Origin: Flammula alnicola
Taxonomy: Eukaryota; Basidiomycota; Agaricomycetes; Agaricales; Strophariaceae
Assembly: GCA_015499995.1 (NCBI GenBank)
Contig: JADNRV010000013.1
Coordinates: 372,001 to 436,000 of the forward strand
Length of the DNA: 64,000 nt
Direction: 5' to 3'
Shown here: positions 30,740-56,059 of the stretch, piece by piece
Position numbering within the stretch: the first letter of the stretch is position 1
How the letters are laid out: the number at the start of each line of letters is the position of its first letter
Translations under genes and position numbers: made by a program
Notes under the pieces: model-generated
What the model was told of the DNA's origin: nothing
Database searches by the model: none
The model's input: the letters and a program-made list of their open reading frames with translations, nothing else

Positions 30740-30865
30740 CCCTCGGACACAGAAAGGCAACATAGCTTACCTGTGTGGCTGGCTAAGAAATTTATTAGTC
30801 GTCGATTCTTTGTGCATCCATATACATTAGCCATGTCTTATCCATTATCAACAAACGATCGGCTG

Positions 30866-33584: not shown

Positions 33585-33723
33585 ACAATATCGACTATTA
33601 ATAGACTGAACATGGACAAAGCTTGGACAAAGCTAGGATACATAAAGGCGCTACATAAAATGATCTACACATGTAGAGTTCGAGATGTGAGGTATAGTAC
33701 AGCTGCTACTGTTAGTCCGCGTA

Positions 33724-35417
33724 TTATACATACAATTCAACGAATGTGGCCCAGCGTTCCACGACCGGTTTAACGAGTTCTTCCCATTCCTTCCCTTGAT
33801 ATTTTCCGCGTTTCCATCTCTTGAACTCAAATATTTCCTTGTGGACGCTACCGCAATCTAGACAAGGCGCCGCAGAATTTGAATCTTTCGAGCCGCTAGA
33901 CTTCGTTTCAGTCATCGGCGCTGCATCGATATTGGGCCACGAAGGATCAAGATATATGGTCGAACAAGCCAGATCTGCGAGCTCAAGATGGATGAGTCGT
34001 TCTGGAGAAAGTTAGTTTTTGACATTGATAGCGATATTGTTACACACTTACCCAGGCGATGACACCAAGGTCCTTTCTCGCCAGCTTTGACTCTGCCTTT
34101 CATGAGACTACCCTCGTTTCCATCTTCATCAGGCTCCACCGTTCCGGGGTAAAATCCTCTTAGAACTTGCTCCTTCGACCCACACTGCTTACCCCATTGA
34201 TCGATCCTCTTCACAAGGTTAACCGCACGACCAACTTTAAGTTTAATCGTCTCCATTTCCTTTTTTTCTATACTGATTGCTCAAATCAAGTCTTCTAAAA
34301 CTGAAAAGGGTGGACGAACCGCGAATCTCGAATGTATAGATGTATCCCTCGACATCTGAATTAGAATGCGCTTTCTCCATCTCAACTCGCAAGGACACTT
34401 GTGTTTCTGTTCGCAAGTACGGCCGTATCCAACCTATATATAATATAATGAAGGTTGCTTTAATTGAGGGATAAGCTCAATATATGCGACGTACGATCGA
34501 AGTCCACCCATTCACCATTCTTTCGCGCGTAGTAGCCACTTGGGCTCATGACTTCCTTGCTATGTTGATAGCAAAACCTTGGAATTGATGAAGAGTCGCC
34601 ATCATCAGAGTCGAACGCTGAAAGTGCAGGCTTGGTTTTGACCGTCCGAGAACAGGGTTTATTGGCTTTAGTTACACCAGCGCATTTCTCTTGACCAGCT
34701 TTCCCGGTGGGTGTAGAGACGGCGTTGGGTAATTCCGCCTTACTTCCTTTGGTTGGAGTCGATGGAGACGAGGCTGGTTTCTTACGAGCAGGTTTCGACG
34801 GCGTAGAAGACGAAGATGATATGCGGGGCTTGATGGCAGAGGGAGGTATAGGATTTGAATGTGGGCGAGCAGCGACACGAGAAGCATCATGCGTTTCCGG
34901 AGGCCGAAGGGCCATTTGCATCGTCAAAGACTGCGGATAACCAGAATAAGGTGTGGGCATTGCCATCGTCGGCCGTGGGTGATTAGGCGCCGATGAAGAG
35001 TAATTAAACTTGCTAACACCGGAGCTTTCTATAGGACTTGGGGCGTAGATAAGGGGGGCCACGTTGTAGGCAGGATTGAAGCCTCCAACGAAGGAGGCAT
35101 TGGAGGACGGAGCATTGGGCCGGTGGTTGGTAGACACCGAGAGGTTGTTGAATGAAGGGATTAGGTTATCTGCATTGGCATAACCGGATATCTTTGAATC
35201 TTGAGCCTGAGGCTTTCGCGGTGGTTTAGGGGGAACTTGGGCATCCCACGTATCCACGTCCATGGCATCGTCCATTGGCGAAGACTTTTTCTATGGGAAA
35301 GTCAAGGAATGCACAAATATTCATGAAAGCAGTAAAACGGACCTTGGAGTCGAAAGAACTGAGCAGATTGTGTAGGAAGTTCTTTGCTTTCCCCTTTGCG
35401 GAAGGATTGCCAGACAT
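33724..35417 (-). CDS. T5orf172/MUG113-domain protein, copy 1
   Basis: Fungal protein with a T5orf172 (MUG113, GIY-YIG-superfamily) domain; function unknown, suspected DNA-binding or nuclease-like. Exon 1 (35343-35417) encodes MSGNPSAKGKAKNFLHNLL. Exon 2 (34495-35290) is a disordered Ser/Pro-rich region ending with CAGVTKANKPCSR and RFCYQH, likely a small zinc-binding motif. The domain itself follows in small exons: GYIYTFEIRG, IKLKVGRAVNLVKRIDQWG and CGSKEQVLRGFYPG. The last exon has LELADLACSTIY and a CLDCG...HKEIFEF motif, ending FVELYV. All frames are open and spliced phases agree, so copy 1 appears functional. It diverges from copy 2 by scattered substitutions and lacks one ARKKP repeat. 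In unit 1 it no longer faces an intact LCP5 gene. Confidence 0.82.
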
Positions 35418-35640
35418 GGCTGGTACTGAATCCTAGAGCTGTCTTGATATAGGTGGACAGTTTGTAACCATGGCAATCGCGACGTGTTCAGCGATTTACC
35501 TGGCGGGGTGCAGTGAACTGAGTGAGGCAGCGTTGTGGGATCGCGCCAGGGTTTGGGCTATGCAAGTACGTACATACATGTGACCGTATAGCTTGATATC
35601 CACCACAGCCACAAACTTACTTGTATTGTCCAAATTGTCA
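35418..35640. other. Promoter segment conserved between both duplication units
   Basis: Near-identical to 49923-50103. Homology breaks off after the sequence around 35640. Confidence 0.5.
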
Positions 35641-35991
35641 ATGTAACTTCCAATAAAAGGTCGTCTTTGTCGACAGCGCCTTGCTGTTTTTTTTTTTTGT
35701 TTTGGCAAAGAATAAGCATTAATTTACTTGTTCATGATCTCGCAAGGTCATAGTGGACGCTCAATTTTTTCTTTCCGATATTAGTTATTATAATAGCGCA
35801 GATTGACTTTACTTACATGCACGGGAGGGGCTTGAACCTGGCAAAATAGGTGCCGCAGGGGCCAGAGCAGTAGAAGCGAGCAACCCGGTGCATGCGATTA
35901 TAGCATCTGCCACTCTCACCTCCCTGCCCCCATCTCGAAACCAAACGCCAAACCCACGCTGACCTCCCCGCCGCTGCACATCCTCTGACAG

Positions 35992-36153
35992 ATCATCTAC
36001 CATACCTTCCTGCATGGCAAGCCTAACCCGCAGGACCAGTACGATACTGCCTATTATGAAGATACGAAGCTCCAAAGGCAGCCCAAGACGCTGTTCTGGC
36101 TTTTGATGCTGGTGTCGGGTCAGCTGTACATCGCAAGCATGCACCTGTTGCGG
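35992..36153 (+). pseudogene. Coding-like exon fragment, unknown origin
   Basis: Preceded by a good splice acceptor (TCCTCTGACAG). 54 codons without a stop begin IIYHTFLHGKPNPQDQYD, continue TAYYEDTKLQRQPK, and end in a hydrophobic segment TLFWLLMLVSGQLYIA. The composition and the acceptor look like one exon of a membrane-protein gene. I do not recognise the family, and no partner exons are visible nearby. Confidence 0.4.
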
Positions 36154-36754
36154 TCTCTCGCTCGCTTGCCTCATTGGACCTCATTGGACCCAGTGCTTGG
36201 AGGACTTTCACCCACCCCACTCTTCTGACCCTCAATCGAGCCAACACCGCTGCTGCCCGATCGCCCGATGCTCAGACGACCAAGGCATGATGACGAGCCA
36301 CGACGGCTCGTTGTCACCATCGCACACCGCCATCAAGCCGGCTGACCACGCCTTCTCTCCACCCCCAACACTCGTTCCGCATTTCCTGACCCTCCTCGTT
36401 GCGAGAACGACACCTGTGACCCACACCATTAATGTCTCCCTCTCTCTCTATCCAACTGCACTGCCGATCTCCAGAAACGGCGGCTCTCTTGCCGTTTTTA
36501 CTCGGCGAGGCAATCGTCGCTCTTCGCTCGTGTCTGGCATGTCTGGGTACAGATGGCAGCAATGAGGCCATTTTACGACGGCAAACACGACAGGAGGTGG
36601 TGGAAGGATGGAGGGGGCTCAATGAGCATCGTAGAGCAGCAGGATGGACAAGCATGGCAAGGGCGGCAAGGACATGCAGTTGCGAATTGCGAGCACAACA
36701 CCGTGGTTGCACTTCGAGCAGGATGACGACGCCACTGCGCCATCATGAAGACCC

Positions 36755-36915
36755 CGCCGCCGCTGCAGCTGCGGGTGCAATGACAATGACGCAACGACGC
36801 CGCAGCTGTGGGTGCAACGACCATGACACCATGACGCTGCCGGTGCATCGACGACGACGACGCAGCTGCAGGTGCAATAATGACGACACCCCGACACCGC
36901 GGGTACAATGACAAC
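36755..36915. repeat. Degenerate GC-rich minisatellite
   Basis: About five imperfect copies of a roughly 30-36 bp unit built on GCAGCTGCGGGTGCAA followed by (A/C)GAC and ATGAC triplets. The repetition leaves frames open on both strands, which should not be read as genes. Confidence 0.6.
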
Positions 36916-37087
36916 GACAGCCCACTTGCAACCCCGACACCAGCACATTCTCCATCTCCTCGCTGACAGGGAACAGCTTTCTTCCTCCTTTCGATGTGGC
37001 TGATGGAGATGACGATAGCACGACCTCCTGCATCCTCCTTCGGTGATGCCGCCTCGAACGCGAAGGACCCTTAGCCTCCTCGTACAT

Positions 37088-37519
37088 CTCACATCCTTTC
37101 CATCATAGATACCAATAACACTGCCAATCATCTCGGGACGATAATCATATCACAGAGATGTGTCTTGAAAACAGTGGGCTTCTCATTGGGAGGGGCCTCA
37201 CGGAGTTTTTTTTTCGATGAGAACCATGGGACGGCGCTTAAGACCGCATTGGAAGCAATGGCAGGCACGGGCGTGGACAAGCTAGCAGGACAGAGACATA
37301 GGTTCAATTTAAGTGTAATAATCCACGTACTTCAACGAACTAAGCCGAAAAAATGGTAAATCAATAAGTTTTTTGAGGTGACAAAAAGGAAAGCAAAAAA
37401 AGCGCATATCTACATTGCTCAGATCGAGGACTTTGTCGAGCGACTCCACGATAAGAAAATGTGCAGAAGGTACGCTTCTTCTTGAGGTCAGTGGCGACTT
37501 GGGGGTTGGTGATTTCAGC
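37088..37519 (-). pseudogene. RPS15 (uS19) ribosomal protein pseudogene
   Basis: On the minus strand the pieces, in the order of the cytosolic uS19 protein, are AEITNPQVATDLKKKRTF (just after an intron-like acceptor CTCCAG), FSYRGV, LDKVLDLSN, LVHARA, then GLKRRPMVLI, REAPPNEKPTVFKTHL, DMIIVPEMIGSVIGIYDGK. Frames shift several times and A-runs are expanded, so it cannot encode a protein. Intron-like spacers remain, which argues for a copy of genomic DNA rather than retroposed mRNA. Confidence 0.85.
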
Positions 37520-37549
37520 CTGGAGACATAATAATCAGCACGTCAGTTC

Positions 37550-37800
37550 TCTGACATGGCCTCCAGAGACGGAAATGAGCACACCATGGTTGTTTCTGGC
37601 AGTCGTCAGTTCAATCTTCCTCTTAAAATTACACAACACCCAAACCTCAGCAGTGGATTTGCCCTCGAGCTCAGAGATGAGAGTCTTCAGGCGGTCCTCA
37701 TCAGTCTCGATGCCTACAAATCTGCAGCGGTGGGGTTGGCATTTCCACCGGTCTGGAGCAAAAAGTAGGCAGCAATCTTGGCAGCAATGTTAAGCATCAT
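37550..37800 (-). pseudogene. RPP2 (60S acidic ribosomal protein P2) pseudogene
   Basis: Minus-strand pieces IAAYFLLQTGGNANPTAADL and GIETDEDRLKTLISELEGKS match the N-terminal dimerisation domain of P2. The link between them is deleted and out of frame, and a remnant SVSGG follows. It lies directly upstream of the RPS15 pieces on the same strand with only a short spacer, giving a chimaeric ribosomal-protein pseudogene block. Confidence 0.8.
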
Positions 37801-38011
37801 CTAATGTGTTCGAGAAAACAAATACTAATTTTGCACACTTTGGAGATTGGTAGGGTGTTGAGAATTTCTGAAATCTGGTAGCCACAAATCACTGTAAAAC
37901 AGCGAAATCAGCGTTTCTTTTACAATATTAACAGAGCGGAGGGAGGACAGGCGGCATAGTTGGAGGTCACAAGCAAACAAGGCCAAAGAGAGCCGCTTCC
38001 AGGGAGAGGTA

Positions 38012-39070
38012 GGTTCGGATCAAGCCCTTTGTCAGCTGCCGGTGTTTATTTGTATATAGTTGCTTTCAGCAACACCTGACAAGGGGCTTGCTTCAAAGTG
38101 TCACGATTGAGGGGGTTTGGTCGCTCGCGACGCTTGAAGCCATTTCCGCGCGCATTTACCTAATTATGCGCGCGTCTTTTAGTATAACATACGATACAAA
38201 CATTGTACTACTCACAATCTTTTCAAATAACTTTATTCTTGACCTGTGAACTGTCTAAGTAGGTGTCTTGACCCCATTTCCTTTCCTGCCTTCTAGAGAG
38301 GGTAAATCTTAAATTTGGACTGTAGCAGTTTGGCATATCATTTTTGCAGTATATATAAGGATAGATCCTGAGCCTCTTGTGAATAGAGTTTGTATTGCTG
38401 TGGCAAAGAGCTGTATAGTAGCGTTGTGATATCGTTTTGCTTACAAGTCACGTGATTAGATACCCCATGAGCGCCCTTTATCCCAAGTGAGATCGATTAA
38501 CGATTTTTGCAAGATTGCTCTCTATACTCAGCATATCAATGGGCTCAAAACACCACACCAACCCATATACTCCCAAAAGACAGCCACCGCGCGTAGTGCA
38601 CGGTGCGCCTTGCATAGGCCTGAACGCGCGTATGTGACACGCGTGACGCAGCTCATCACGGTGAGCCGGTCGGTCAATGGAAACACATTTCCGACGGCGG
38701 GCAGTTCTGTAACCTAAAAATGAGTATCTAGAACTTATAAAACATATAATGCGGGAGTAATGCCCAAGCGCCCCATGAATTGGTTGAAAACCTGCGATGA
38801 TAAGTCAAAATTAAGAAATTTGCATGTTTCGGCCACACATAGTGCTGTACTGTAAACAATTTTTATGTATTTTTATTTTTGAGTAGATAGACACTTGAGA
38901 ATACATTTTAACTACAGTATGTACTTTGACTTTTGTTTGTGCGTCAATTTTTGAGGGAAAGCGACAGGAATAAGTAAACCCCTGATTTTGATGCATTCTG
39001 AAGCAAGCCCCTTCTGCGAAGGAGCCGCTGCTTGCGCTCGCGACCGGAGCACGTGGGCTTGCTCCGAACC
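38012..39070. mobile_element. 1.06-kb non-autonomous element with terminal inverted repeats and TA target duplication
   Basis: Left end GGTTCGGATCAAGCCC (38012-38027) faces right end GGGCTTGCTCCGAACC (39055-39070), 15 of 16 complementary. A TA dinucleotide flanks both (38010-38011 and 39071-39072), as for Tc1/mariner-type insertion. Each end also has an inner inverted copy of GGGGCTTGCTTC (38083-38094 and, reversed, 39000-39011), so each terminus can fold back. The interior is AT-rich without a transposase frame. Confidence 0.75.
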
Positions 39071-39187
39071 TACAAGGATGGTCGTGGTGCTTCTATTTGG
39101 TAGGTGTTGTACAGGAGGCAGACACCAAACAAAGGCAACATCATGACTAATTTAGACTGGGTGGAACCTTCCTGTTAACACAGCAAG

Positions 39188-39447
39188 GCGACCTCCCACG
39201 TCGTTCAAACCTCTGCTCACTCGAGCCATTGGTGAGTTTCAGGAATTATACATTGTGTGTGATGAAACGCACTGGGCTCTGACAATCATTGATGTCACGC
39301 ACTACGCTCATGATGAGCGGCGGCCTAGAAAACCGTTAACTGATTCAATTCTTTCTTCTTACTCTAACTCGCATTTTCTAACTCGCACACACTTTGAATA
39401 ACACAGTACTATACAATGGATTCAAAACATGAAGAGCCGCAAGAAGC
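39188..39447 (+). pseudogene. LCP5-like gene copy 1: promoter and first codons only
   Basis: Matches the promoter and start of the intact gene at 50954. The ATG at 39417 begins MDSKHEEPQEA, after which homology stops within about ten codons and a stop follows. The rest of the gene is missing up to 41632. Confidence 0.8.
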
Positions 39448-40589
39448 CCATCCCTGAGGGGAAACGCAGGCAAACACCACAAATGCCACTGCCCCTGCTC
39501 CGGCTGCCGAAGAAGAGAGGTATGACGAAGGAAGGTGAAGGATAGCCAGAGTCGAGAGAAGTTACAGATGAGTAAGTCGTCGATCAATACAATAAAAAAG
39601 ACTTACGAATTTTGTTAGTCTGACTACGGGAGACTAGAGAGAAGTACAGCAAGTAGACGGCGCAGCCGCGCCGCCTCCCGATTTGTTCAACCGACGCGCG
39701 CTGGGTCCCCCAGAACTTCATTTCTAAATCTGCGAGCCCTCTACGGCTCAAACAGTACGAAAAAGTTCAAAATAAGCGCTATGGTACAGAATCCGCTAAA
39801 AATGTGATGATTGGCATTGATTGCACCATCGACGTTTCAAATGTTATACAGTAATGGACCCATTAAGATATAATGCCCGAAAAACAGATATTAATTCCAA
39901 AAACACTGATTTTTTTTGGCGCAGTACCATAGAATGTAATTGAATGCACTCCTGCAGAAGATATGAAAAGCGTAGAGAACAAAACGAGAGAACAAGACCA
40001 GAGTCCTCCATTTCGGAAGGACATTTGGCTTGAGCCTTTGTTTGTCCGCCCTGCTCAGCCTCAGAGAAAATGATTGCTCGTGGTAAAATCCCTCGCAAAG
40101 AGTATATCTACATAGTGTAATAAGTGCGTATGATCCTTTAATTTGAAGATCGACTCACAAATCAGCGGAAGCCTGGGGCTTGCACATCTTTAAAGATAAG
40201 ATTGACCTAAAAATGGAGATAATAAAGAGATAATGACCGCCGTAGCCCTGCCTGTTGGTATCTGAATGGTTTAAAACAGTCTGCTTCATCATTCCAGTTC
40301 CTCAATGTGAGCTGCCAAAAATCTTGCCAAAAATCTAGGATTGAATCCGATTGATACTTGTTGTATCCCACCTAATTGTGCGGCCGTCCTCGGCCGTCTT
40401 GACACGGCAGAGTCAGTCGATAATCGGTGACTGGTGACCGGTGATTGCCGGCGATGCAGATTCCCACAACGATTAAGAAGGTTTTCCTATGTAGTCTCTT
40501 AAAACAGACTTTATAAATCAAATGATAATCGATTTGATATAATATAAGAGGTTTTCCAGGTTTTCAGCGCCAGCACCGTCACCTCACCC
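39448..40589. other. Inserted DNA upstream of the kinase gene
   Basis: No gene recognised. Contains a GC palindrome (GGCGCAGCCGCGCC near 39659), T- and A-rich stretches, and GGTGACTGGTGACCGGTGA-type short repeats near 40425-40445 in the likely kinase promoter. Confidence 0.4.
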
Positions 40590-41431
40590 ATGGCCTCGAC
40601 ACCCAAATCACGACAGCTTCTCGCGAGAGGAGACATTTTTGATGACAATGGTGGATTTATTCACATCGCTCTTGTTTGGACCGAGAACTCCCAGATCTAC
40701 TTCACTAATCTTGCTAGTCGACAGTTTGATGACAATGCTCTCGACGAAGTAGATGGAAAACTCATTCCAAAGGAAGCCGTCTACGCCTCCTGGCGCGAGA
40801 GTATTAGAGAGGCGAAGACACCCTTGCCCCCCGACACCTACACCAAAATGCCTTACTGGCATTGCTTTGAAGGGAAGGCTAATTTCAAATTGATCAACGC
40901 CGAGATCGATGTCCTGGAAATCCTGTCGACGAAACCCCATCCAAACATCGTTGAATACCATGGATGTATTCGTGATGGAGATTGCATTGCGGGTATCTGT
41001 TTGCGCAAGTATCTGTGTACGTTGGAAGAATTTATCGAAGGCCAGGTTCCTGCTCATCAGTAAGCGCGCTGTAGCGATATGTTAATTACTTTCCCGCTTA
41101 CTCGGCCTTTCCTTGTTTTAGGTGTCCGCCTTTCGATGCCGACTCCGTAGTTTCAGGCATAAAAGCTGGATTAGACTTTCTCCACGGTCTTGGACTTGTT
41201 CACGACGATATTAATCCTAGGAACATTATGCTGAATGCTGTCGGTCACGCCATCATCATTGACTTTGACTCTTGTGCCCCCATCGGAGCAAAATCGCGTG
41301 GCGGCACGCCTGGGTGGTCGAAGAACCCAACAATAGCTCAGGTCGAGAACGATGAACACGGCCTTGACCTCCTTGTCAAGTTTATTCAGGGACAATATGA
41401 TGGTCAGGATCTTGATGCTTTCGGAATGTAA
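40590..41431 (+). CDS. Atypical protein kinase-like protein, inserted in the LCP5 copy
   Basis: Two exons (40590-41058 and about 41122-41431, intron GTAAGCGC...TTTTAG), about 260 aa. A kinase C-lobe is clear: GIKAGLDFLHGLGLVHDDIN then PRNIML corresponds to the catalytic loop (HDD for HRD, N for the usual Lys). IIDFDSC corresponds to DFG (here DFD). GTPGWSKNPTI corresponds to the activation segment/APE region. The N-lobe is short: HPNIVEYHGC and YLCTLEEFIEG are seen, but no clear glycine loop or VAIK lysine. Such small divergent kinases are common in Agaricomycetes. With the ATP-anchoring Lys not evident it may be a weak kinase or pseudokinase. It lies between the two halves of the broken LCP5 copy and is absent from unit 2. 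Confidence 0.75.
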
Positions 41432-41631
41432 ACCTAGCCTCTACTTTGGTTGGAGGGTCTACTCTACAACATAGACGTATAATGAACCGACCTTGTGGCA
41501 TACAGAACCACGTCCCGACTTGCCAACTGGAATCCTAATTGTACCCGTGACGCCTTCGAAGACTACCTTTGAGCTGAATGGGAAAACACTCTCGACATCA
41601 ATTGCCCCTCTGACTAGCTTGGGCAGTTAGC

Positions 41632-41736
41632 GGTGACATATCGGATCATGAAGAAGGCGATGACGCTCCAAGGTCGAAGAAACGGAGTCACTTCGAGTTG
41701 GAAACCAAGGTCGCGAAGAAGTTTGCAAAGCGATGA
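41632..41736 (+). pseudogene. LCP5-like gene copy 1: last ~33 codons
   Basis: Matches the 3' end of the intact copy (52098-52201): SDHEEGDDAP, KKRSHFELETKVAKKFAKR-stop, lacking one Lys codon. With the fragment at 39188 it shows the gene's middle was replaced by about 2.2 kb. Confidence 0.85.
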
Positions 41737-42010
41737 ATGTTGCACTGTCGAGACATCGTCTCTTCGTGACAAAGGTATTTAATTTGTCAGACCGCTCAAT
41801 TGCCCAGTCAATTGGTTACACTGGGAAACCCAGCGCCATCGTGGTTACAAAGTGCCAGAAAATAATTGATTGGATGGCAGTACTGAAAGAGACGACAACG
41901 AAAAGTAATACGACTACAACAATAAAACTGCTACGCATAGGGATAAGCATGGCAACAATAGAACAGATATCTTCCTCTAATTCTACATACTTATATCAAC
42001 CAGTAAATCC

Positions 42011-44091
42011 TTATATGAATTCCAATGGCTCGACTCTTCGAACACATTTGGGTTGCGGGTCTTTCCAGTCGTTTTCCTCGGGGTCCTCACCGTCTAAAAA
42101 GTTACCAACTTCCCATACCCAGCGTAGGAAAGTAGTCGGCCGGCGTGGGCGTGGTGGGGGATTAGAGAAGAACGGCCAAGTAGGCAGATAGCACATTTCC
42201 TAGAGACGAACATAAGCAGTCAATAAAGATGCAACAGGAGGTAGATATCGACGTAAAAGAGAAATACTAACCTCGTAACTGCATTCCGGTCGACACCTTA
42301 ACCAATAAGAGCTCCAGTCCAACCACTTCATCAAATCTTCGATCCTCTCTCTCCACTTCTGCGCCAGGTCGTGTGAGACTGGCAGATTCTTGTTTTTGCT
42401 GTGCAAATTCAAGGACTCCGATTCAGTCAAACCAACCTCTACCCCCTCCGCCCATGTAGAAACCAAAATACGACAGATCTCCTTCTCTACACCTTTGACC
42501 GCGCCGAGCAGCGTATTCTCAGAGGGCATCAACTTACTCGCCAGTATCTTACTCGTCTCTATATAACGCGTGTGCGTCGTCGCACAAAATTCAAACACCG
42601 GCGCCGCCCAAGAATGGTTCGAGCCGGTTTCCAGGCCCGTCTTAGGAGGAACGGACGAGTGGAGAACGTACGGTGCAAGCATCCTCGTTATATGTCGATG
42701 CGCTTGCTTCAGCTTGGGTTCCGCGTCGGCTTCGGATGTGGTGGCTGTCGCGTTGAGAATATATGGCAACAGCTCGAGCCGCTCCGCATACCGATCCGTG
42801 ACGGTGTTGAACAGCGTCCGCCAATCGACGCCAGAGCCACTTGCAGCAGGATTGTCGGTTTCCGCGAACATATCGCCCACACGCGCACGGAAAGCCTGCA
42901 CGTCGTTAGCACTGATGCCGTCCAATCGGTGGTCCAGTCGTCCTTGTCCCTCGCGAGCAATTTGCAGACTAGGAAACAGCAGCGGATCATAAAAAGAGAT
43001 CAAGCGCGAGTAGTCGAGCTGGATGCGCGTTTCGCCTGGGTAGTGGTTGTGCCAACTGCCTGACTCGACGACTCGGAACAGTGGTGTCAACGGCCATCGT
43101 TTTGGGGCTCTTGGAGCTTGTGGGTCGGGAGAAGCGGGAGAAGCGGAAGGTCCGGGTTTGGGTGGTGGCCTCCGAACTGTCCCACTGTCTGCCGAGGCGA
43201 GGTTAAGGAAGGAGACAGTTTGGACGCCAGCTGAAAAGTCGCACAACATGATTTCACTGCAAGAAAATCACATTCAGAATGTCAGATATCACAGAGCACG
43301 CAACGAGCTTAACACTCACAAATCCATCTCCATTCTGTGAAAAAGGCCGTCCGTTAGCTTGAATTACATGACATAAGGAGCAGAGAAGGTAAAATACCCA
43401 CCTCAAAAACCCATCAACCCATACTGCTTCCCCCACCGACACAGCTCAGCTATCCTCCTCCTCTCATCAAACGTATTCTCCGGGACGACCTTGCCCCACA
43501 CGACAAGGTCCTGGGTGTCCATCGGGCCCCCGAGCATCTTCGCCGCGCTGCTGCCGTCAAAGTACAGCACCTTGAGCGGACGCGTCGCGACGAGCGTCAG
43601 GTGCCAGCATCCCGAGTCCTGCGCGACGCTCCTGCAGAACAGGTACGAGTGCTCCGGGTCGGTCGCGGTCCACTCTGGGACCTTGGGTATCTCGGCTTTG
43701 GAGGTGCCGTGGTAGAGGAGGGTGCCCACGGGGATGGTACCCGGCACGATGGTGTGTCCTACATAGCGCAGACGAGACAGGACAGTAAAATAATCAGATT
43801 AGATATACTGGAATAGTATAAGTATCTGTGCGCACCATTCCTGTATCGGGTGTTGGGCCAGTGTTGGAGGAGAGAACGGACGTTGTCGAATATGAGATGG
43901 CTCGTAGAATTCTTGGGCGGCTCCTCAGTGAAACTCCATTCAAGTTGACTCCTAGTCTGCATGGACGGCACCAAATTTTCTAATGATTCCGGTGTGGTGA
44001 ATTTGAAAGCAGCCTGTCCAAGCTGTTGCGCTTCGACTAGAAAACTCGGCAAAATGCACAGCGCACCCACCGCCGCAAGTCCAGCGCGCAT
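42011..44091 (-). CDS. Uncharacterised secreted protein, copy 1 (frameshifted, possible pseudogene)
   Basis: Same gene as at 52439-54553. The signal peptide is MRAGLAAVGALCILPSFLVEA. An N-terminal domain follows (HTIVPGTIPVGTLLYHGTSK, DPEHSYLFCRSVAQDSGCWH, LTLVATRPLKVLYFDGSSAA), then a Pro-rich linker and a C-terminal domain (GSWHNHYPGETRIQLDYSRL, SWAAPVFEFCATTHTRYIET, YWLRCRPECSYE), ending in EMCYLPTWPFF and VRRVEPLEFI. Compared with copy 2, one base is missing in a C run at 43418-43420 (three C against four at 53886-53889). This turns GVDGFLR into LMGF-stop, before the splice site. Everything downstream remains open, so the loss is recent or a sequencing error. I know no named domain for this protein. 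Confidence 0.65.
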
Positions 44092-44332
44092 CGTGATGGC
44101 AACAACAAGAAAACGCGTCCAGCGGAGAAACTACCCATGTTATCTTTATATGTCGCGGTTGATGAGAGTCTGGCCTTGTGGCTTGCGCGCACTGTTGCAT
44201 GCCCGCAGCCGTTTGTTCTCCTTGATGGCCGACGCCAAGTTGAAGTTCAAAAATGACCACATTGGCCGCAGTGCTTGTCAATCTCTCACCGGAGAAACCG
44301 GGCCGCTTAGCGCTCTATCTCAATTCTTTAGG

Positions 44333-45664: not shown

Positions 45665-45828
45665 ATTCTTTAGGCCACTGGATTGGACTTTGATTACTCA
45701 GATCTATCCAACATCCTTGCTTTCCTCAAGGAAGTTGCTGAATCGTTGAGGAAAATGGCGTCCACGTACCCCATAGGTATTCTGGAATCATCTTGACTGT
45801 CTTCTGGGTTCCCACTTAGATAAGGATG

Positions 45829-47694
45829 AACTAGACTGTGGACCCTCAGTAAATCACAAAAGTCCGGCTGACTCACGTATATGTTCGTTCGGAGTCTGGT
45901 TTCTGTATTTCAGTCATGTATCAGTCAGACGGTTGCAGACTGATTTGATGGCAACATTTTCTCAAATATATGTCCCATTAATGTCTTGTAAAGGTCCGAT
46001 AATAGTCGTGTTCTCTGGTCAGGTTAGAGTTTGGTAAAAGTAATGAAATCGTCTCGTAGATTGTAACTGTATTCCATAGTGGCCGTACATGTCAAAGTAC
46101 CATTGAGTCAGCCTCATCATCGTCTGAACCTTCTCCGTCTTCTACTACAAGCTCATTGTTCTCAATTCCGCATTCCTCAGTATGAACATCAGGAAAAGTG
46201 GAGAATGGTAATCCGGTCTGAGCAATGGTAGTGTTAAAAGGCTCGAAAGCTGCAGTGAATGTTGGACTCGAAGCCTTCAAGAATCGGAAGATGCATCGAA
46301 ATCTTCTAAGTCAAATGAAACTCCGACGCACGTGACCTTGTTGATTGTGGTTGAAGTCGTTGGAGTTTGAACTTCGTCTCTTTCAACCACCTCACCGCCA
46401 CCACGATGACAACCACGAAGGCTTGTCCTCATCACTGTGCTGCCCAATGGCAACAAAAAAGAGGTAATGAGCACCCCCGTCACAATCTCGCTGCCCCGTA
46501 TGCTACCACTAACCCATTCCAACCCCATTTCGTGCAGGAAACAGAGCTTGAGGCTGTCATCTCGCCCTTGCCCCCTTATTTGAGCAGCACAGGAGCAACT
46601 ACGCGGCCTATGCAGCCCCACCCAATCCCACCGCCACTTCGGACGACTTGTGAGTACGAATAACGACCATGAATGGAAGGGCCACCGGACAGCAGGTACG
46701 TCGCAGAACGGCCTAGCCGACAAAACACGGTATGTTTTCGGCCTCAAGAATCTCTGTATTATGCATACTGATCATAAGGTACGCCAGCGGCGGTACCAGA
46801 TCTTATTTCCTCTATCTTGAAAGACTCGCGCTGCTGTACTCAACCGGCGTCCGTTTGCCTCGAGTTCCAGAAAATGGTTCGTCGAGACTGTCTTTTCACC
46901 GTAGCTGCGCTCATTATGTTTTTTTTAGCTTGACGAACGGAGAGAAGGCAAGAAGACCTCATCTGAAAATATAACTTGAGTATCGGACTCCAGAGATTCT
47001 TATAGCTGTTTTATTCCTGTATTCTTATGCTCATATTGTTGTTTAATTTACATCTATCATAATATACTTTTGTGCTATGGAATGGCAGCAGTGGGAAAGC
47101 GAAGACTATTAACCGTCAAATACCGGACACTTACTGGACTTGAGCTGACTATGACCATATGCATAACTGACTGCGCCCTGACTAGTAGAAACAAGGGACA
47201 TGACTATACACTGACTTCGAAAAGACAGAAATGAGAGGAACATGACTATAAACCTGACTTCAACTTGACTGTAAGGATGGCCGTGGGTTGCTTGGCAAGG
47301 CTTGGCACCTTACGCAGCCTGACTTACCCATGAGTATTCTGGCAGAACCCTAGTCCGACTATAGTCGATACAGACGACAAATTGGTCAGGTAATTGTATA
47401 CTCGACTATTCTCGAACATTTAGCTTACATACACCTGATTTTTGGATTTACTGAGGTGGACCCATGCTTTGCACGGTGAAAGAGTTGTGCCAGAGATAGT
47501 TCAACGTTGTAACTTGTAAGCCAATGGTAACATCTAGAGTGAGGGCCGAGAGCAGGCCAGACCATCAATGAGTCACGTGCCCGTGCATCGCCACAGATCT
47601 CTGTAAGCCCAAGCCAATGAGTGTGTGTCTTTGTCTCTAGCCAATGAGCCGCGCCCGATTTATCCCCCCCGTGAGAACCCATGTCGTTTTATAA
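45829..47694. other. 1.87-kb insertion in unit 1, nature unknown
   Basis: Absent from unit 2, where the flanks are joined. It contains a 63-codon acidic-tailed frame on the minus strand (46092-46280, ending GSDDDEADSMVL). It also contains a coding-like plus-strand stretch at about 46654-46815 (HEWKGHRTAGTSQNGLAD, RYVFGLKNLCIMHTDHK) and, near 47150-47290, repeated ATGACTATA motifs. No clear terminal repeats; possible short flanking similarity ATAAGGAT / ATAAGAT. Confidence 0.5.
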
Positions 47695-47978
47695 GATAGA
47701 TTCATTCATAAACGTTATCGAGGGTTGGCAACAAAAAAAATAGACCTGTATCCTTGCTTCAATTTCCTGCATATGTACACTTTCCGTTGGCCTCCATGTA
47801 TAGCGGATCCAAGAATCCAAGGAGACAGACACTTTGTAGTTTGATTGTATATTTAGTACAATTTATAGCATCGGACTGTGCGCAGTGTGTCGTCGCGTTT
47901 ATAGTGCATTGAACGACGCATGGCAGTGCTTTATGAAGGATATTGGCCATGTATATCGGGGTAATGGGCATGGAACAT

Positions 47979-48039
47979 TTATTCTAGGATTTTGGGGGTG
48001 AATTGCTTGACTACCTTCGCGTAAGCTTCTGTGTGCAGG
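47979..48039 (-). pseudogene. Fossil 3' end of the esterase gene at the duplication joint
   Basis: Encodes the last 18 or so residues of the 55217 hydrolase (LHTEAYAKVVKQFTPKILE-stop) with two substitutions, then sequence identity ends at 48039 exactly where coding continues in the intact gene (55276). It marks the breakpoint of the tandem duplication. Confidence 0.88.
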
Positions 48040-48227
48040 CGCCTGTATTTGCGAAGCTGACTATTACATACAAATTTAAGTAATGGCAATATTGCTGCCT
48101 CCCATAACAATAAAGACTATTAATAGACTGAACATTGGACAAAGCTATAGATAAACACAAAATGACCTAGACATGTAAAGTTCGAGGGTATAGTACAGCT
48201 GTTGCTGTTAGTCCGCGTAGGTAGTGT

Positions 48228-49922
48228 TTATACATACAATTCAACGAATGTGGCCCAGCGTTCCACGACCGGTTTAACGAGTTCTTCCCATTCCTTCCCT
48301 TGATATTTTCCGCGTTTCCATCTCTTGAACTCAAATATTTCCTTGTGGACTCTACCGCAATCTAGACAAGGCGCCGCAGAATTGGAATCTTTCGACCCGT
48401 TAGACTTCGTTTCAGTCATCGGCGCTGCGTCGATTTTCGGCCACTCAGGATCAAGATATATGGTCGAACAAGCCAGATCTGCGAGCTCAAGATGGATGAG
48501 TCGTTCTGGAGAAAGTTAGTCTTTGACATTGATAGCGATATTGTTACACACTCACCCAGGCGATGACACCAAGGACCTTTCTCGCCAGCTTTGACTCTGC
48601 CTTTCATGAGACTACCCTCGTTTCCATCTTCATCAGGCTCCACCGTTCCGGGGTAAAATCCTCTTAGAACTTGCTCCTTCGACCCACACTGCTTATCCCA
48701 TTGATCGATTCTCTTCACAAGGTTAACCGCACGACCAACTTTTAGTTTAATCGTCTCCATTTCCTTTTTTTCTATACTGATTGCTCAAACCAAGTCGTGT
48801 AGAACTGAAAAGGGTGGACGAACCGCGAATCTCGAATGTATAGATGTATCCCTCGACATCTGAGTTAGAACGCGCTTTCTCCATCTCAACTCGCAAAGAC
48901 AGTTGTGTTTCTGTTCGCAAGTACGGCCGTATCCAACCTATATATAATATAATGAAGGTTGCTTTAATTGAGGGATAAGCTCAATATATGTGACGTACGA
49001 TCGAAGTCCACCCATTCACCATTCTTTCGCGCGTAGTAGCCACTGGGACTCATGACTTCCTTGCCATGTTGATAGCAAAACCTTGGAATTGATGAAGAGT
49101 CGCCATCATCAGAGTCGAACGCTGAAAGTGCAGGCCCGGTTTTGACCATCCGAGCACACTGTTTACCGGCTTTAGTCACACCAGCGCATTGCTCTTGACC
49201 AGCTTTCCCAGTGGGTGTATAGACGGCGTCGGGTGCTTCCGCTTTACTTCCTTTGGTCGGAGTCGATGGAGACGAGGCCGGTTTCTTACGAGCAGGTTTC
49301 TTACGAGCAGGTGTCGGCGGCGCAGAAGACGAAGATGATATGCTGGGCTTAATGGCAGAGGGAGGTATAGGATTTGAATGTGGGCGAGCAGCGAGATGAG
49401 AAGCATCACGCGCTTCCGGAGGCCGAAGTGCCATTTGCATCGTCAAAGACTGCGGGTAACCAGAATAAGGGGTAGGCATTGCTATCGTTGGCCGTGGTTG
49501 ATTAGGCGCAGATGAAGAGTAATTAAACATGCTAACATCAGAGCTTTCTATAGGACTTGGGGCATAAATAATGGGGGCCACATTGTAGCCCGGATGAAAG
49601 CCTCCAACGAAGGAGGCATTTGAGGACGGAGGATTGGGCCCATGCGAGAGGTTGTTAAACAAAGGGATTAGGTTATCTGCATTGGCACAACCAGATATCT
49701 TTGAATCATAAGGCATTGGCAGTGGTTTAGGGGGAACTTGGGCACCATTCCCAGCATCCACGTCCACAGCATCGTCTATTGGCGAAGACTTTTTCTATGG
49801 CAAAGTCAAGGAATGCGCAAGTATTCGTGAAAGAAGTAGAAACAGACCTTGAAGTCGAAAATGTCGAGCAAATTGTGTAGGAAGTTCTTTGCCTTCCCCT
49901 TCGCGGAAGGAGTGCCAGACAT
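48228..49922 (-). CDS. T5orf172/MUG113-domain protein, copy 2
   Basis: Paralogue of the gene at 33724-35417 with the same exon plan. The start MSGTPSAKGKAKNFLHNLL is at 49920-49922, followed by an intron and an exon to about 48999. Differences from copy 1 include loss of a few residues in the N-terminal disordered part and a tandem PARKKPARKKP in place of a single repeat. The cysteine motif has changed to CAGVTKAGKQCAR. The T5orf172 core (KVGRAVNLVKRIDQWDKQCG) and the C-terminal CLDCG motif are intact, and all splice phases work. It diverges from the LCP5-like gene at 50954. No biochemical role is established for fungal members. Confidence 0.82.
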
Positions 49923-50953
49923 GGCTGGTACTGAATCCTCGAGCTGTCATGATATAGGTGGACAGTTTGTAACCATAGCAATCGCGACGTGTTCGGCGAT
50001 TTACCTGGCGGGGTGCAGTGAACTGAGTGAGGCTGCGTTGTGGGTCCAATGTGGGATCGCGCCAGGGTTTGGGCTCTGTAAGTACATACATGTGACCCGT
50101 ATAGGTTCTGATCAGAACGGCCGTTCCGCGTTAAACCGTGGTACAGCCTGATGGAAAGCTTGTTGCATCCAGAAGCGTTGTAGTCTCTCCTGACAGACCA
50201 TATACAACAGATGACAATCGATCTGTTGTTGATATAAGGAAGGGTTGCGGGCGACGGGCAAGGCGCATGCTAAGGCTGGCGCCCAAAGGCAGTGCAGCAG
50301 GCAGGATATTCGGGGACTTCCAGAAGCGAATGGCTGTATTGAATGAGTGCCCGCGACGTTGACAACTTCGAACCACAGTCTGGTAGCTTTTTTCCCGAAA
50401 AAGGGTTTTGACGCACCCAGCACTGCTGACATTTACTACTATATCCCTTCCCAAAACCATAACATTCCTTCATGACTACCACATTTACATACAAACGGTC
50501 TATCGAGGTTAGTATTTACCAACCTTAGTCTCTTGTAGGCATAGATAGATGTCTCATTGTAACAATTGTAACAACATTCATGGTCATCAAAAGCTTTCAA
50601 TCCAAACTTCTACAAAGATGTGCACTGACATAAGCATAGGAAAATCGGTGTTACCAAGTAGTAGCAAAAGGGGACCCCAGGGACACCACAGCCACAACCT
50701 TACTTCTATTGTCCAAATTGTAAGTTCAAACCTCCCACCGTCATTCAAACCTCTGCTCACTCGAGCCATTGGTGAGTTTAAAAAGAATTATACATTGTGT
50801 GTGATGAAACGCACTGGGCTCTGACAATCATTGATGTCACGCACTACGCTCATGACGAGCGGCGGCCTAGAAAACCGTTAACTGATCCATTTCTTTCTTC
50901 TTACTCTAACTCGCATTTTCTAACTCGCCCACACTTTAAAACAGTACTATACA
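49923..50953. promoter_or_regulatory. Divergent promoter region of T5orf172 copy 2 and LCP5, with an insertion
   Basis: Flanks (49923-50103 and 50687-50953) are shared with unit 1. The middle 583 bp is unit-2-specific and annotated separately. Confidence 0.45.
50104..50686. other. 583-bp insertion specific to unit 2
   Basis: Unit 1 runs straight through this site. The left end carries two overlapping perfect palindromes, GTTCTGATCAGAAC (50105-50118) and GAACGGCCGTTC (50115-50126). A 109-codon frame is open on the minus strand (50131-50460; FLISTTDRLSSVVYGLSGET near its C-terminus) without recognised homology. It could be a small mobile element or a captured fragment. Confidence 0.45.
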
Positions 50954-52201
50954 ATGGATTCAAAACATGAAGAGCTGCACGAAGTTCTCGAAACCATGAC
51001 GGGCAGTCTCTCAGCGGCACGAGCGGCCTTGAAGTCCATAAAGCAGAAGTCAGTCCTCGCCCCTTTCCTGCACCAGAGATCGCTGACGAATGGCGAGAAG
51101 TCCGCAGAATCTGGATGTAACAAGTGGCATATCCCTTCTTTCGTTGAAGCATCACTTATTGCTGTCCTACCTTCAATCCCTGGTTTTGGTCGCTGCTCGT
51201 CGTGTCGTAGGAGACTCACTCAGCGAGCGCGCACCGCCAACGCAACAGTTTGGGGCAAAAGATCGCGATGCTCGTGGCAGTCATGCTGGAGACCTGATCG
51301 ATTCAATGATCGAAAATCGCATTGTGCTCGAGAAAGCTGAGGTACTGGAAAGCAAAATGCGCTATCAAATCGAAAAATTGGTACGAATCGCAGCCGAGCC
51401 TGCGCAGAGCAACGTGGTGACCGATGGTGGGAAATTTTCTGTCTTTTATCTCGATGTGGCTCATTTTGAAATTTTATTTAATTAGACCCGCTTGCCTTCA
51501 GGCCTAACCCAATGGCACTGGTCGGCGACTCGAGCGTACCGCAAGAACCCTCTGGTCACGGTTCTAAATCAAAATACACAGATGTGGACGACACCGCGAA
51601 CGACGATGGGATCTACCGTCCTCCTCGTTTGGCCCCAATGCCTTACGTTGAGAAATCCAAAAATCAATTACGGCAAAAACGCGCACCTATTCCCTCTGCA
51701 CTGGCTACGCTAGCTGCAGACCCATCCCAGCCTTTCGTAGAATCCACATCAGGTTTGGGAGGCGCGCCTGCTCTGGCTTCAGGTCGTGCTCAGTACCTCA
51801 AGAGACTGAAAGACTTCGAAGAAGAGAATTTCACACGTCTTGTCATGAAGAAGAGCGACGCCAAACGCCGTGCTAGAGACGAAGAGGACCTGGCACTAGG
51901 TGGCGATCTTGGCACTGGATCAGGTCCGCGAGGTCGGAGACGCGCGGGAGGTTTGGATGACGAGTTCAGTGAGGTCCTGCGGAGCGTCAGTCGGGTCACT
52001 GGAGGACGCGGCCAGGGCGACGGCTACGAGGAACTAAGAAAACGAGGCAAAAAGATGGATGTCCTGGAAAGAAGTCGCACGAACTCCAAGAGGCGTGATA
52101 TGTCGGATCATGAAGAAGGCGATGACGCTCCGAGGTCGAAGAAACGGAGTCGCTTCGAGTTGGAAACCAAGGTCGCGAAGAAGAAGTTTGCAAAGCGATG
52201 A
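50954..52201 (+). CDS. LCP5: LCP5/neuroguidin-like U3 snoRNP protein (Sas10/C1D family)
   Basis: Nucleolar protein of the Sas10/Utp3/C1D family, needed for 18S rRNA processing in yeast. Three exons: MDSKHEELHEVLETMTGSLS through KQK; an intron with acceptor GGCGAG at 51094 (chosen because it alone keeps the frame); then SPQNLDVTSGISLLSLKHHL, the hallmark LLLSYLQSLVL helix, and ENRIVLEKAEVLESKMRYQI. A second intron (donor GTGGGAAA near 51429) leads to DPLAFRPNPMAL. The C-terminal half has DDGIYRPPRLAPMPYVEKS and ends in a basic tail ELETKVAKKKFAKR. These match neuroguidin/Lcp5 in order. This is the only intact copy in the window; the unit 1 copy is destroyed. Confidence 0.87.
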
Positions 52202-52438
52202 ATGTCGCACTGTAATGTCAAGGCATCGCCTCTTCGTGACAAAGGTATTTAATTTGTCAGACCGCTCAATCGCCAATTCAATTGGTTACAGGATGGCAGT
52301 ACTGAAAGAGACGACAGCCAAAAGTAATACGAGTACAGTAATAAAACTATTACGCATAGGGACGAGCATGGCAACACTAGAACAGATATCTTCCTCTAAC
52401 TCTACATACTTATGTCAACCCTCTAAATTTGTAAATCC

Positions 52439-54553
52439 TTATTTGAATTCCAATGGCTCGACTCTTCGAACACACTTGGGTTGCGGGTCTTTCCAGTCGT
52501 TTTCCTCGGGGTCCTCACCGTCTAAAAAGTTACCAACTTCCCATACCCAGCTCAGGAAAGCGGTCGGGCGGCGTGGGCGTGGTGGGGGGTTAGAGAAGAA
52601 CGGCCAAGTAGGCAGATAGCACATTTCCTAGAGACGAACGTAAGTCAGGCGATAAAGATGCAACAGGAAGAAGATATCGACGTATGAGAGAAATACTAAC
52701 CTCGTAACTGCATTCCGGTCGACACCTTAACCAATAAGAGCTCCAGTCCAGCCACTTCATCAAATCTTCGATCCTCTCTCTCCACTTTTGTGCCAGGTCC
52801 TGTGAGACTCGCAGATCTTTGCTTTTGCTGTACAAATTCAACGACTCCGATTCGGTCAAACCAACCTCTACCCCCTCCGCCCATGTGGAAACCAAAATAC
52901 GACAGATCTCCTTCTCTACACCTTTGACCGCGCCGAGCAGCGTATTCTCAGAGGGCGTCAGCTTACTCGCCAGTATCTCATTCGTCTCTATATAATGCGT
53001 GTGCGTCGTCGCACAAAATTCAAACACCGGCGCCGCCCAAGAGTGGTTCGAGCCGGTTTCCAGGCTCGTCTTAGGAGGAACGGACGAGTGGAGAACGTAC
53101 GGTGCGAGCATGCTCGTTATATGTCGATGCGCTTGCTTCAGCTTGGCTTCCGCGTCAGCTTCGGATGCGGTAGCTGTCGCGTTAAGAATATAAGGCAACA
53201 GCTCGAGCCGCTCCGCATACCGATCCGTGACGGTGTTGAACAGCGTCCGCCAATCGACGCCAGAGCCAGGATTGTCGGTTTCCGCGAACATACCGCCCAC
53301 ACGCGCACGGAAAGCCCGCACGTCGTTAGCACTGATGCCGTCCAATCGGTGGTCCAGACGTCCTTGTCCCTCGCGAGCAATTTGGAGACTAGGAAACAGC
53401 AGCGGATCGTAAAAAGAGATCAAGCGCGAGTAGTCGAGCTGGATGCGCGTTTCGCCTGGGTAGTGGTTGTGCCAGCTGCCTGACTCGACGACTCGGAACA
53501 GGGGCGCGATCCGACGTGGGTCTGTAGGTCTTCTGGGAGCTGCTGACGGCTGGAGTGTCGACGGCCATTGTTTTGCGGCTCTGGGAGCATGTGAGTCGGA
53601 AGGAGCGGGAGAAGCAGAAGTTCGGGGTTGGGGTGGGGGCCTTCGAACTGTCCCGCCTGCCGGGGCGAGGTTAAGGAAGGAGACAGTTTGGACGCCAGCT
53701 GAAAAGTCGCACAACATGATTTCACTGCAAGAAAATCACATTCAGAATTTCTGATATCACAGAGCACGCAACGAGCTTAACACTCACAAATCCATCTCCA
53801 TTCTGTGAAAAAAGCCGTCCGTTAGCTTGAATTACACGACATAAGGAGCAGAGAAGGTAAAATACCCACCTCAAAAACCCATCAACCCCATACTGCTTCC
53901 CCCACCGACACAGCTCAGCTATCCTCCTCCTCTCATCAAACGTATTCTCCGGCACGACCTTGCCCCACACGACAAGGTCCTGGGTGTCCATCGGGCCCCC
54001 GAGCATCTTCGCCGCGCTGCTGCCGTCAAAGTACAGCACCTTGAGCGGACGCGTCGCGACGAGCGTCAGGTGCCAGCACCCCGAGTCCTGCGCGACGCTC
54101 CTGCAGAACAGGTACGAGTGCTCCGGGTCGGTCGCGGTCCACTCTGGGACCTTGGGTATCTCGGCTTTGGAGGTGCCGTGGTAGAGGAGGGTGCCCACGG
54201 GGATGGTACCCGGCACGATGGTGTGTCCTGCATAGCGCAGACGGTGAAATAATTAGATTAGATATACTGGAATAGTATATGTATCGGTGCGCACCATTCC
54301 TGTATCGGGTGTTGGGCCAGTGTTGAAGGAGAGAACGGACGTTGTCGAATATGAGATGGCTCGTAGAGTTCTTGGGTGGCTCCTCAGTGAAACCCCATTC
54401 AAGTTGACTCATAGTCTGCGCGGACGGCGCTAAAAGTTTCAAGGTTTCCGGTGCGATGAATTCGAAAGCAGCCTGTCCAAGCTGTTGCGCTCCGACTAGA
54501 AAACTTGGCAAAACGCACAGCACACCCACCGCCGCAAGTCCAGCGCGCATCAT
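52439..54553 (-). CDS. Uncharacterised secreted protein, copy 2 (intact)
   Basis: Starts MMRAGLAAVGVLCVLPSFLV, a signal peptide with likely cleavage after VGA. Exons were joined by phase: RYRN|GHTIVPGTIPVGTLLYHG (intron donor GTGCGCAC), GVDGFLR|MEMDF, FEIMLCDFSAGVQTVSFLNL, a long exon (Pro/Ala-rich linker, then GSWHNHYPGETRIQLDYSRL, ISFYDPLLFPSLQI, SWAAPVFEFCATTHTHYIET), and a last exon EMCYLPTWPFF...VEPLEFK. About 630 aa. Conserved Trp, Cys, His and Asp residues, with two pieces of hydrophobic core (LYHGT, LTLVATRPLKVLYFDG), suggest an extracellular globular protein. I do not recognise any named family. It is convergent with the LCP5-like gene. Confidence 0.75.
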
Positions 54554-55216
54554 GATGGCAAGAACAAGAAACTACCCATGTTATCTTTCTTTATATGTCG
54601 TGACTTGTGCGCACTGTCGCATTCCCGCAGCTGTTTGCTATTTTCTCCTTGATGGCCGACGCCAAGCCTGTTGAAGTTCAAAAATGACCACATTGATTGT
54701 CCATCTCATCACCGGAGCAAACGGGCCGCTTAGCGCGCTGCATATCTCAAGAGTCTTTATCTCAGTCCACTGGATTGGACTTTGATTACTTAGATCTATC
54801 CAACATCCTTGCCTTCCTCAAGGAAGTTGCCGAATCGTCGAGAAAAATGACATCCACGTACCCCATGTTTGAGGGCGTTCATGAACCACCTTGACTGTCT
54901 TCTGGGTTCCCGCTTAGAAGTTAGATAAGGATCAATCCATTCATCATAAACGTTATCGAGGTTTGGCAAAAAAAAATAGACTCGTATCCTTGCTTTCAAT
55001 TTCCTGCATATGTACACTTTCCGTTGGCCTGCGTGTATAGCGGATCCAAGAATCCAAGGAGACAGAGACTTTGTAGTTTGATTGTATATTTAGTACAATT
55101 TATAGCCGTCGGACTGTGTGCAGTGCGTCGTCGCGTATATAGTGCATTGAACGACGCATGGCAGTGCTTTATGAAGGATATTGGCCATGTATATGGGAGT
55201 AATGGGCATTGAACAT
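54554..55216. other. Intergenic, partly duplicated at 45.67-45.83 and 47.69-47.98 kb
   Basis: Compact version of the interval that in unit 1 is split by two insertions. No gene. Confidence 0.45.
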
Positions 55217-56059
55217 TTATTCTAGGATTTTGGCGGTGAATTGCTTGACTACCTTCACGTAAGCTTCTGTGTGCAGATTTTCGTTATGCTCTTCGGTAAG
55301 CTCGTCAACGTTGATCGAAACGTGCTGGGGGTCGATCTCCTTGAGGTGGGCGTACATCAACTCCGTCTGAGTCATATCGACGAGGGTGTCACCCTTGGAG
55401 TGAAGCAGGAGCCAGGATATCGAGGAAGATGGCCGCAAGGGTATTTAAGAGCAGAGAACTGGGAGTACGTCTGGGAAGGACCAAACGCAGGTTCGACAAA
55501 CCACTGGCGATATCCAGGGAAGCGCGCGAGCAAGCCGTCTAGATCATAGATGCCCTCGGACATGATAATACCCTTGATTGAGGAAAGCAGCTCGGCCGAA
55601 GGGACTAAGGATAGATTGGCAGAGTCGGATGCCAAGAATATTGAGGACAGCATGTGGGCACTGCAGCTATGGCCCATAAGGACGAGTTTGGAGGCGTCGA
55701 AAGGACATGGAGGGCTGTTCCACGTCTGGATGAACTCGAGGAAGAGGAGGATATCCTGGGCATGGATCGGATGGCGGAACTGCGGATCTAAGTTGTTGGC
55801 TGGAGTTAGGCGATAGTTAGGGACTGCGACTGGACAGCGCGTGGTGATGGCGAGACTGCGGGCTAGAGCAGCATAGTCACGTTTGTCCTCCCTAGCAGGT
55901 GTTAGCAGAGTGAGATAGAAAGAAAAAGTGGGCTCACGATCTCCACGCGCCACCATGGATAAAGCAGAGGAGTGGTGCCTGCTGTGACGCAATTGCAGGC
56001 GAATAGAGGTCGAATTGGCGATCGCCTTGGGCATACGCAATATCATTGAAATGTGTCAT
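55217..56059 (-). CDS. Alpha/beta hydrolase, kynurenine-formamidase-like (frame break near 55440)
   Basis: Starts MTHFNDIAYAQGDRQFDLYS, then the HGGAW oxyanion motif (FIHGGAWRS). An intron at about 55895-55937 leads to RCPVAVPNYRLTP and the nucleophile elbow GHSCSAHM. The C-terminal acid is in LLLHSKGDTLVDM and the catalytic His in ENLHTEAYVKVV. The HGGxW motif and overall length fit arylformamidase (BNA7-like), which hydrolyses N-formylkynurenine in tryptophan breakdown; a generic esterase remains possible. Between SALKYP and LRPSSSISWLLL the frame shifts by one base at a GGG run (55439-55441; four G would restore it) with no intron signals there. This may be a sequencing error. Only 126 bp separate its start from PMP3. 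Confidence 0.78.

Follow-up and report, generated by a model that had tools for sequence, protein, structure and literature searches.

A tandem segmental duplication in Flammula alnicola with a single retained LCP5 gene and insertions concentrated in one of its units

The locus described here contains a tandem segmental duplication of which one unit has lost its LCP5 gene and collected a series of insertions, while the other has remained compact. We give a probability of about 0.75 to the full history proposed below, in which an old tandem duplication was followed by decay of LCP5 in unit 1 and by later insertions of small DNA transposons. The window, i.e. the whole stretch of 64,000 nucleotides of Flammula alnicola DNA that was analyzed, is part of contig C35 in an assembly of 861 contigs and 74.4 Mb. 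Self-comparison of the window placed unit 1 at 33584-48038 (14,455 bp) and unit 2 at 48106-55276 (7,171 bp), in agreement with the sizes of about 14.5 kb and 7.2 kb given in the original prediction. Five collinear blocks on the same strand link the two units with E values from 0 to 9e-46 in this self-comparison, a likeness far above chance. Identity outside gaps after realignment amounted to 93.3% in block 1 (33584-35594 and 48106-50107), 96.0% in block 2 (39191-39446 and 50730-50984), 94.2% in block 3 (41633-44323 and 52095-54750), 89.3% in block 4 (45672-45820 and 54764-54918) and 95.5% in block 5 (47700-48038 and 54939-55276), and in total 322 of 5,274 aligned sites (6.1%) differ between the units. 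The units are joined by a 67-bp filler (48039-48105). A templated origin of this filler was rejected, as the left and right outer flanks gave no match to it better than shuffled sequence and a genome search with the region 48030-48110 returned only the region itself and its allele. Tandem segmental duplication followed by loss of a redundant gene copy is a known kind of system, and the present locus, with its collinear same-strand blocks, one retained LCP5 and scraps of the other, does not differ from it in kind, except that insertions here double the length of one copy. Both the duplication and the subsequent decay are therefore of an ordinary, known kind, of which this locus preserves an unusually legible record.

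The original prediction described a block of four genes present twice. Order and strands of the copies do agree, but the duplicated material comprises three genes together with an approximately 340-bp 3' tail of a fourth, and LCP5 in unit 1 is represented by two scraps. Since unit 1 thus holds LCP5 scraps, a frameshifted gene c, an intact gene a and only the tail of the hydrolase-like gene, the phrase "four genes twice" overstates its content. Gene a, a predicted T5orf172/MUG113 gene (GIY-YIG-like), is intact in both units, with five exons encoding 492 aa on the minus strand at 48228-49922 in unit 2 and likewise 492 aa at 33724-35417 on the minus strand in unit 1. The protein of the unit 2 copy scored above the cut-off of two Pfam models (40.0 versus 20 and 40.4 versus 22.3 bits), and all 17 matches of a genome search were located at units 1 and 2 on C35 and on a second contig, C478, which is described further below. 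The public model of the unit 1 copy (BDZ97DRAFT_175327, 301 aa) runs into an intron and ends before the T5orf172 domain, as compared to the 492 aa of the spliced gene.

LCP5 is essential in yeast. In unit 2 the predicted LCP5/Neuroguidin gene (Sas10_Utp3, PF04000; 50954-52201, plus strand) is intact, with three exons and 377 aa, and its Pfam score of 39.7 bits lies above the cut-off of 30. The protein is 81% identical to its Pholiota conissans homolog and 100% identical to the public Flammula alnicola protein BDZ97DRAFT_1653380 over 91% of the query; the public model takes an internal ATG as start and misses the first exon. In a genome search with the 377-residue query all eight of eight candidates matched, all of them on C35 and C478, so that the unit 2 gene and its allele are the only copies that the assembly was found to contain, and the earlier statement that unit 2 holds the only intact LCP5-like gene extends to the whole assembly with the exception of this allele. 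From unit 1 the protein search recovered residues 343-377 only. On the plus strand of unit 1 the upstream region and approximately the first 10 codons remain at 39191-39446 and the last 35 codons at 41632-41733. Between them lies segment C (39447-41632, plus strand), which with 2186 bp replaces 1110 bp of LCP5 (50985-52094 in unit 2). Segment C is largely single-copy in the genome and contains two kinase-like ORFs, one without a Pfam match (40548-41060) and one with a match to Pkinase at an E value of 2.4e-8 (41075-41428). No source for segment C was found, and inspection by eye revealed no target duplication around it.

Gene c in unit 2 (52439-54553, minus strand) is intact, with five exons and 614 aa. 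It is assigned to the PF27671 family from the labels of its homologs, hmmscan with Pfam having given no match. The unit 1 copy (42011-44091, minus strand) has the same exon layout and carries a frameshift due to a 1-bp deletion within 43410-43434, which is present in both contigs; the public model of gene c starts at an ATG inside exon 1. The fourth gene, predicted to be alpha/beta-hydrolase-like, runs on the minus strand from about 55217, to the right of and partly inside unit 2, and self-comparison located the copy of its 3' tail in unit 1 at 47700-48038 (about 340 bp). Single exon frames of this gene remained below the Pfam cut-offs (Abhydrolase_3 with 23.6 versus 25 and BD-FAE with 18.3 versus 26.8 bits). 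A Pfam scan of ten single stop-to-stop frames of the locus found little, and spliced models, such as those of LCP5 and of gene a in unit 2, were scanned in their place.

At least four insertions had been predicted in unit 1, and more were found. Six inserts (A, B, C, D, E and H) lie in unit 1 of the window, and two more (F1 and F2) are confined to C478, as is G, a piece of 268 bp, giving eight insertions over both contigs (A, B, C, D, E, F1, F2 and H). None of these was found in unit 2. In this respect the expectation that no insertion is shared holds, but unit 2 has a private segment of 576 bp (50108-50683), in which lie a short repeat of high copy number and a repeat of 281 bp with two further copies at 96-98%; as no clear target duplication is seen there, both a gain in unit 2 and a loss in unit 1 are possible. 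All inserts in the window except C belong to repeat families, and the insertions are located between genes, within other inserts or in the defunct LCP5 of unit 1. Insert A (35639-38009 and 39073-39190, spanning 35639-39190 with B) is a repeat with relatives at 86-89% identity, into which B (38010-39072, 1063 bp, terminal inverted repeat (TIR) TAGGTTCGGA) is nested. At least 14 other full-length copies of B were found at 91-100% among 40 scored of 149 candidates. Copies elsewhere, for example at three further loci, are flanked by 9-bp target duplications, in contrast to the window copy, which has none, and the spacing in a relative on another contig indicates that about 100 bp of A are missing beside B, which together point to a later local rearrangement. 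Insert D (44855-45518) is a 664-bp TIR element that is absent from C478 and has a TA target duplication, judged by comparison with the empty site of the allele and with four further copies; its full-length copies elsewhere, with all candidates scored, number four at 98-99% and seven at 86%. Insert E (45846-47455, 1610 bp), also absent from C478 and with seven other full-length copies when all candidates were scored, has short TIRs and an 8-bp target duplication, GTGGACCC, recognized by comparison with the allelic empty site, while another copy in the genome has AGTGCCGC. It is nested in H (45830-45845 and 47456-47700), a repeat of about 253 bp that occurs in both contigs and is missing from unit 2, and that has at least 11 near-full-length relatives among 40 scored of 105 candidates.

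The empty site of F1 and F2 in the window (39072-39081) is filled in C478 by two different TIR elements, each with its own copies elsewhere (approximately C478:4225-5482), at the target TACAAG(G). This motif flanks both elements on each side and therefore indicates that F1 inserted first and F2 second. At the G site (47684-47700) the 268 bp found in C478 only have the 5-bp motif ATAGA on both edges, and G may be either an insertion or a microhomology deletion. The longest ORFs starting with ATG encode 61 aa in B, 117 in D, 85 in E, 43 in F1, 55 in F2, 170 in A with B and 157 in C, and most inserts thus look non-autonomous; five ORFs within A, D and E gave no Pfam match. The inserts here resemble MITE-like non-autonomous TIR elements in their TIRs, their target duplications (8 bp for E, 2 bp for D and, at copies elsewhere, 9 bp for B) and the lack of a long ORF. 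We take E to be hAT-like, D a mariner-like MITE and B possibly Mutator-like, types assigned solely from the ends of the elements and the lengths of their target duplications.

The distribution of insertions between the units, eight in unit 1 versus one in unit 2 if the 576-bp segment is counted, deviates from equality with a two-sided binomial p of 0.039, and each of the five segments that one contig has and the other lacks (D, E, F1, F2 and G) is located in the unit 1 part (one-sided p = 0.026); these p-values are modest because the events are few and partly nested, hence non-independent, and G is perhaps a deletion. The asymmetry had been ascribed to constraint on one unit and freedom of the other. 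In favor of this, unit 2 holds the sole LCP5 found, whereas unit 1 has lost LCP5, carries the gene c frameshift and took up most of the insertions. Unit 1 as a whole is not free, however, as its gene a is intact with uninterrupted exons, and a better wording confines this freedom to the LCP5 portion of unit 1 and to its gaps. Between the units gene a shows a dS of 0.135, a dN of 0.054 and a dN/dS of 0.40, and gene c a dS of 0.097, a dN of 0.034 and a dN/dS of 0.35. In relative-rate comparisons gene a accumulated 10 changes in unit 1 versus 12 in unit 2 (p = 0.83, majority of five outgroups) and gene c five versus none (p = 0.06, majority of eight outgroups), with single outgroups for gene c ranging from 8 versus 2 to 2 versus 3. 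Faster protein evolution in unit 1 was accordingly rejected as a general feature, as it is not seen in gene a and weak in gene c. Seven of eight coding indels between the units are multiples of three (p = 0.0026, binomial versus one third), the exception being the gene c frameshift, and this includes all four in gene a; among noncoding indels the fraction is 7 of 20 (Fisher p = 0.033 versus coding, with runs sorted by hand). The dN/dS ratios, in-frame indels and relative rates suggest that protein-level constraint acted on the copies during much of the time since the duplication, and in both units gene a seems to be constrained even now. Changes from CpG to TpG or CpA number 43 in unit 1 and 30 in unit 2 (p = 0.16), and on these counts a decay of unit 1 through methylation or a RIP-like process was rejected.

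It is quite possible, though at somewhat less than even odds, that the skew reflects insertion-site preference and nesting instead of relaxed selection, with A and H having turned unit 1 into a transposon-rich island that was favored by other elements. This would fit the position of B within A, of E within H and of F1 and F2 at the same target by the end of B (F2 within the duplicated target of F1), as well as the finding that gene a changes no faster in unit 1 than in unit 2. However, neither C nor D lies within another insert, and the loss of LCP5 and the frameshift in gene c are themselves marks of relaxed constraint.

The second contig, C478 (26,635 bp), aligns piecewise to window positions 34853-62209 at 99.6-99.9% and comprises part of unit 1, the same junction between the units and the whole of unit 2; as it begins within unit 1, the left boundary of the duplication is known from one contig only. 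C35 and C478 differ by eight SNPs over the 10.9 kb of the unit 1 part that align, three of these SNPs being at the edge of G, and by no SNPs and one indel column in the 7.2 kb of unit 2, which corresponds to 0.04% of the aligned sites in both units. The right flank has 17 SNPs, 16 of which form a tight cluster at 59230-59807 that also contains some small indels, while its surroundings are almost without differences. We infer that C478 is the allele from the other nucleus. Were it instead a recent duplicate at another site in the same nucleus, the presence or absence of D, E, F1 and F2 would distinguish paralogs and not alleles. A search with window positions 20001-34852 is compatible with such a duplicate, as no second contig appeared among the matches listed (36 of 37 candidates scored), but the window itself was missing from them as well, which makes this negative an unreliable one. 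The near-zero divergence and the start of the contig inside unit 1 nevertheless seem to fit an alternative haplotype better, and we regard a paralog as distinctly unlikely. That the tandem arrangement is an assembly artefact, with two haplotypes of one locus placed end to end, is extremely improbable and was rejected, for although a near-identical second contig for the region does exist, this contig itself spans the junction, with some of unit 1 on one side and the complete unit 2 on the other, not one unit as the haplotype collapse named in the original prediction would require, and the units are 6.1% apart compared to the 0.04% between the contigs. Judged by both contigs of this assembly, the tandem duplication is real in the genome and not an assembly join.

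The silent divergence between the units outside the more similar tracts is about 0.11-0.18, which indicates that the duplication is old. From exon 2 to intron 3 of gene c, silent differences are reduced to 6 of about 212 sites versus 48 of 471 elsewhere (p = 6e-4), and in the 3' part of gene a to 16 of 295 versus 40 of 256 in the rest (p = 1e-4); these counts were summed by hand over tracts picked after the data had been seen, and selection on silent sites could also produce such a pattern. The tract in gene c corresponds to 53725-54227, is only about 1-3% different from unit 1 and is likely the product of gene conversion.

With regard to ancestral gene order, the best 120 of 447 matches to the LCP5 protein and the best 120 of 256 matches to the T5orf172 protein were compared. 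Among the matches listed, the locus tags of the two genes are separated by one to four numbers in five further Agaricales (Tricholomella constricta, Asterophora parasitica, Leucocoprinus birnbaumii, Volvariella volvacea and Panaeolus cyanescens), and the genes lie on contigs of the same size in, for example, Pholiota conissans, Cyclocybe aegerita, Galerina marginata and Hypholoma sublateritium. In contrast, the contigs differ in size in Crassisporium, Hohenbuehelia, Cyathus and Tricholoma furcatifolium, and the pairing is thus not universal among the matches listed. Based on tag numbers and contig sizes, the LCP5-T5orf172 pair of unit 2 looks ancestral. The gene c homologs listed for Galerina and Cyclocybe are on contigs apart from that of the pair, and this family has several members per species.

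Taken as a history, these observations would begin with a block of the T5orf172 gene, LCP5, the PF27671-family gene and the 3' tail of the hydrolase-like gene, which was duplicated in tandem and joined through the 67-bp filler, probably by end-joining or a replication switch and presumably within the Flammula lineage. Later gene conversion may have homogenized parts of the units, as the patchy silent divergence suggests. LCP5 would then have become redundant, and the middle of the unit 1 copy was replaced by the unrelated kinase-like segment, so that LCP5 is now presumably supplied by unit 2 only. Unit 1 would subsequently have gathered transposons, most of which lack coding capacity, in its gaps and in the remnants of dead genes, its T5orf172 gene meanwhile being kept under putative protein-level constraint. 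Recent events would be the insertions of D, E, F1 and F2 into one or the other haplotype, to which presence/absence and target duplications point, given that the two contigs are probably alleles. Counter-evidence to this history consists in the absence of faster protein change in unit 1 for gene a, with only a hint of it for gene c, the CpG decay without significant bias, the repeat-bearing segment of unit 2, the small, partly nested counts and the exceptions to the LCP5-T5orf172 pairing among the matches listed.

Since insertions arrived between contigs with no SNPs in unit 2 and eight in the unit 1 part, unit 1 might even be a live transposon sink, in which four to five insertions of at least four families, including F1 and then F2 at one 7-bp target, collected in dispensable duplicated DNA at a local transposition rate similar to that of point mutation, a proposal that we regard as rather unlikely. 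If a recent burst did occur, the paired haplotypes of Flammula alnicola would make it possible to measure, in a mushroom, the rate of transposition relative to that of point mutation. Transposons have been described as the cause of structural differences between the nuclear haplotypes of Phlebopus portentosus, which resemble those found here; they are described there as involving chiefly LTR elements and variants over 10 kb, as opposed to the small TIR elements and the near absence of SNPs at the Flammula locus (PMC12411881). No literature on this locus was found among titles and abstract openings. The locus represents a compact natural record of which gene was kept once and which twice, of the places that tolerate insertions and of the tempo of insertion, while by itself it leaves the general picture unchanged.

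Neither Aragorn nor Rfam at gathering thresholds detected RNA genes in the window. Another repeat of about 1.1 kb is located at 25184-26278 and has many copies genome-wide, the best full-length ones at 93%, and to the right of unit 2 a tandem repeat with a 96-bp period and 2.2 copies occupies positions 56948-57164.
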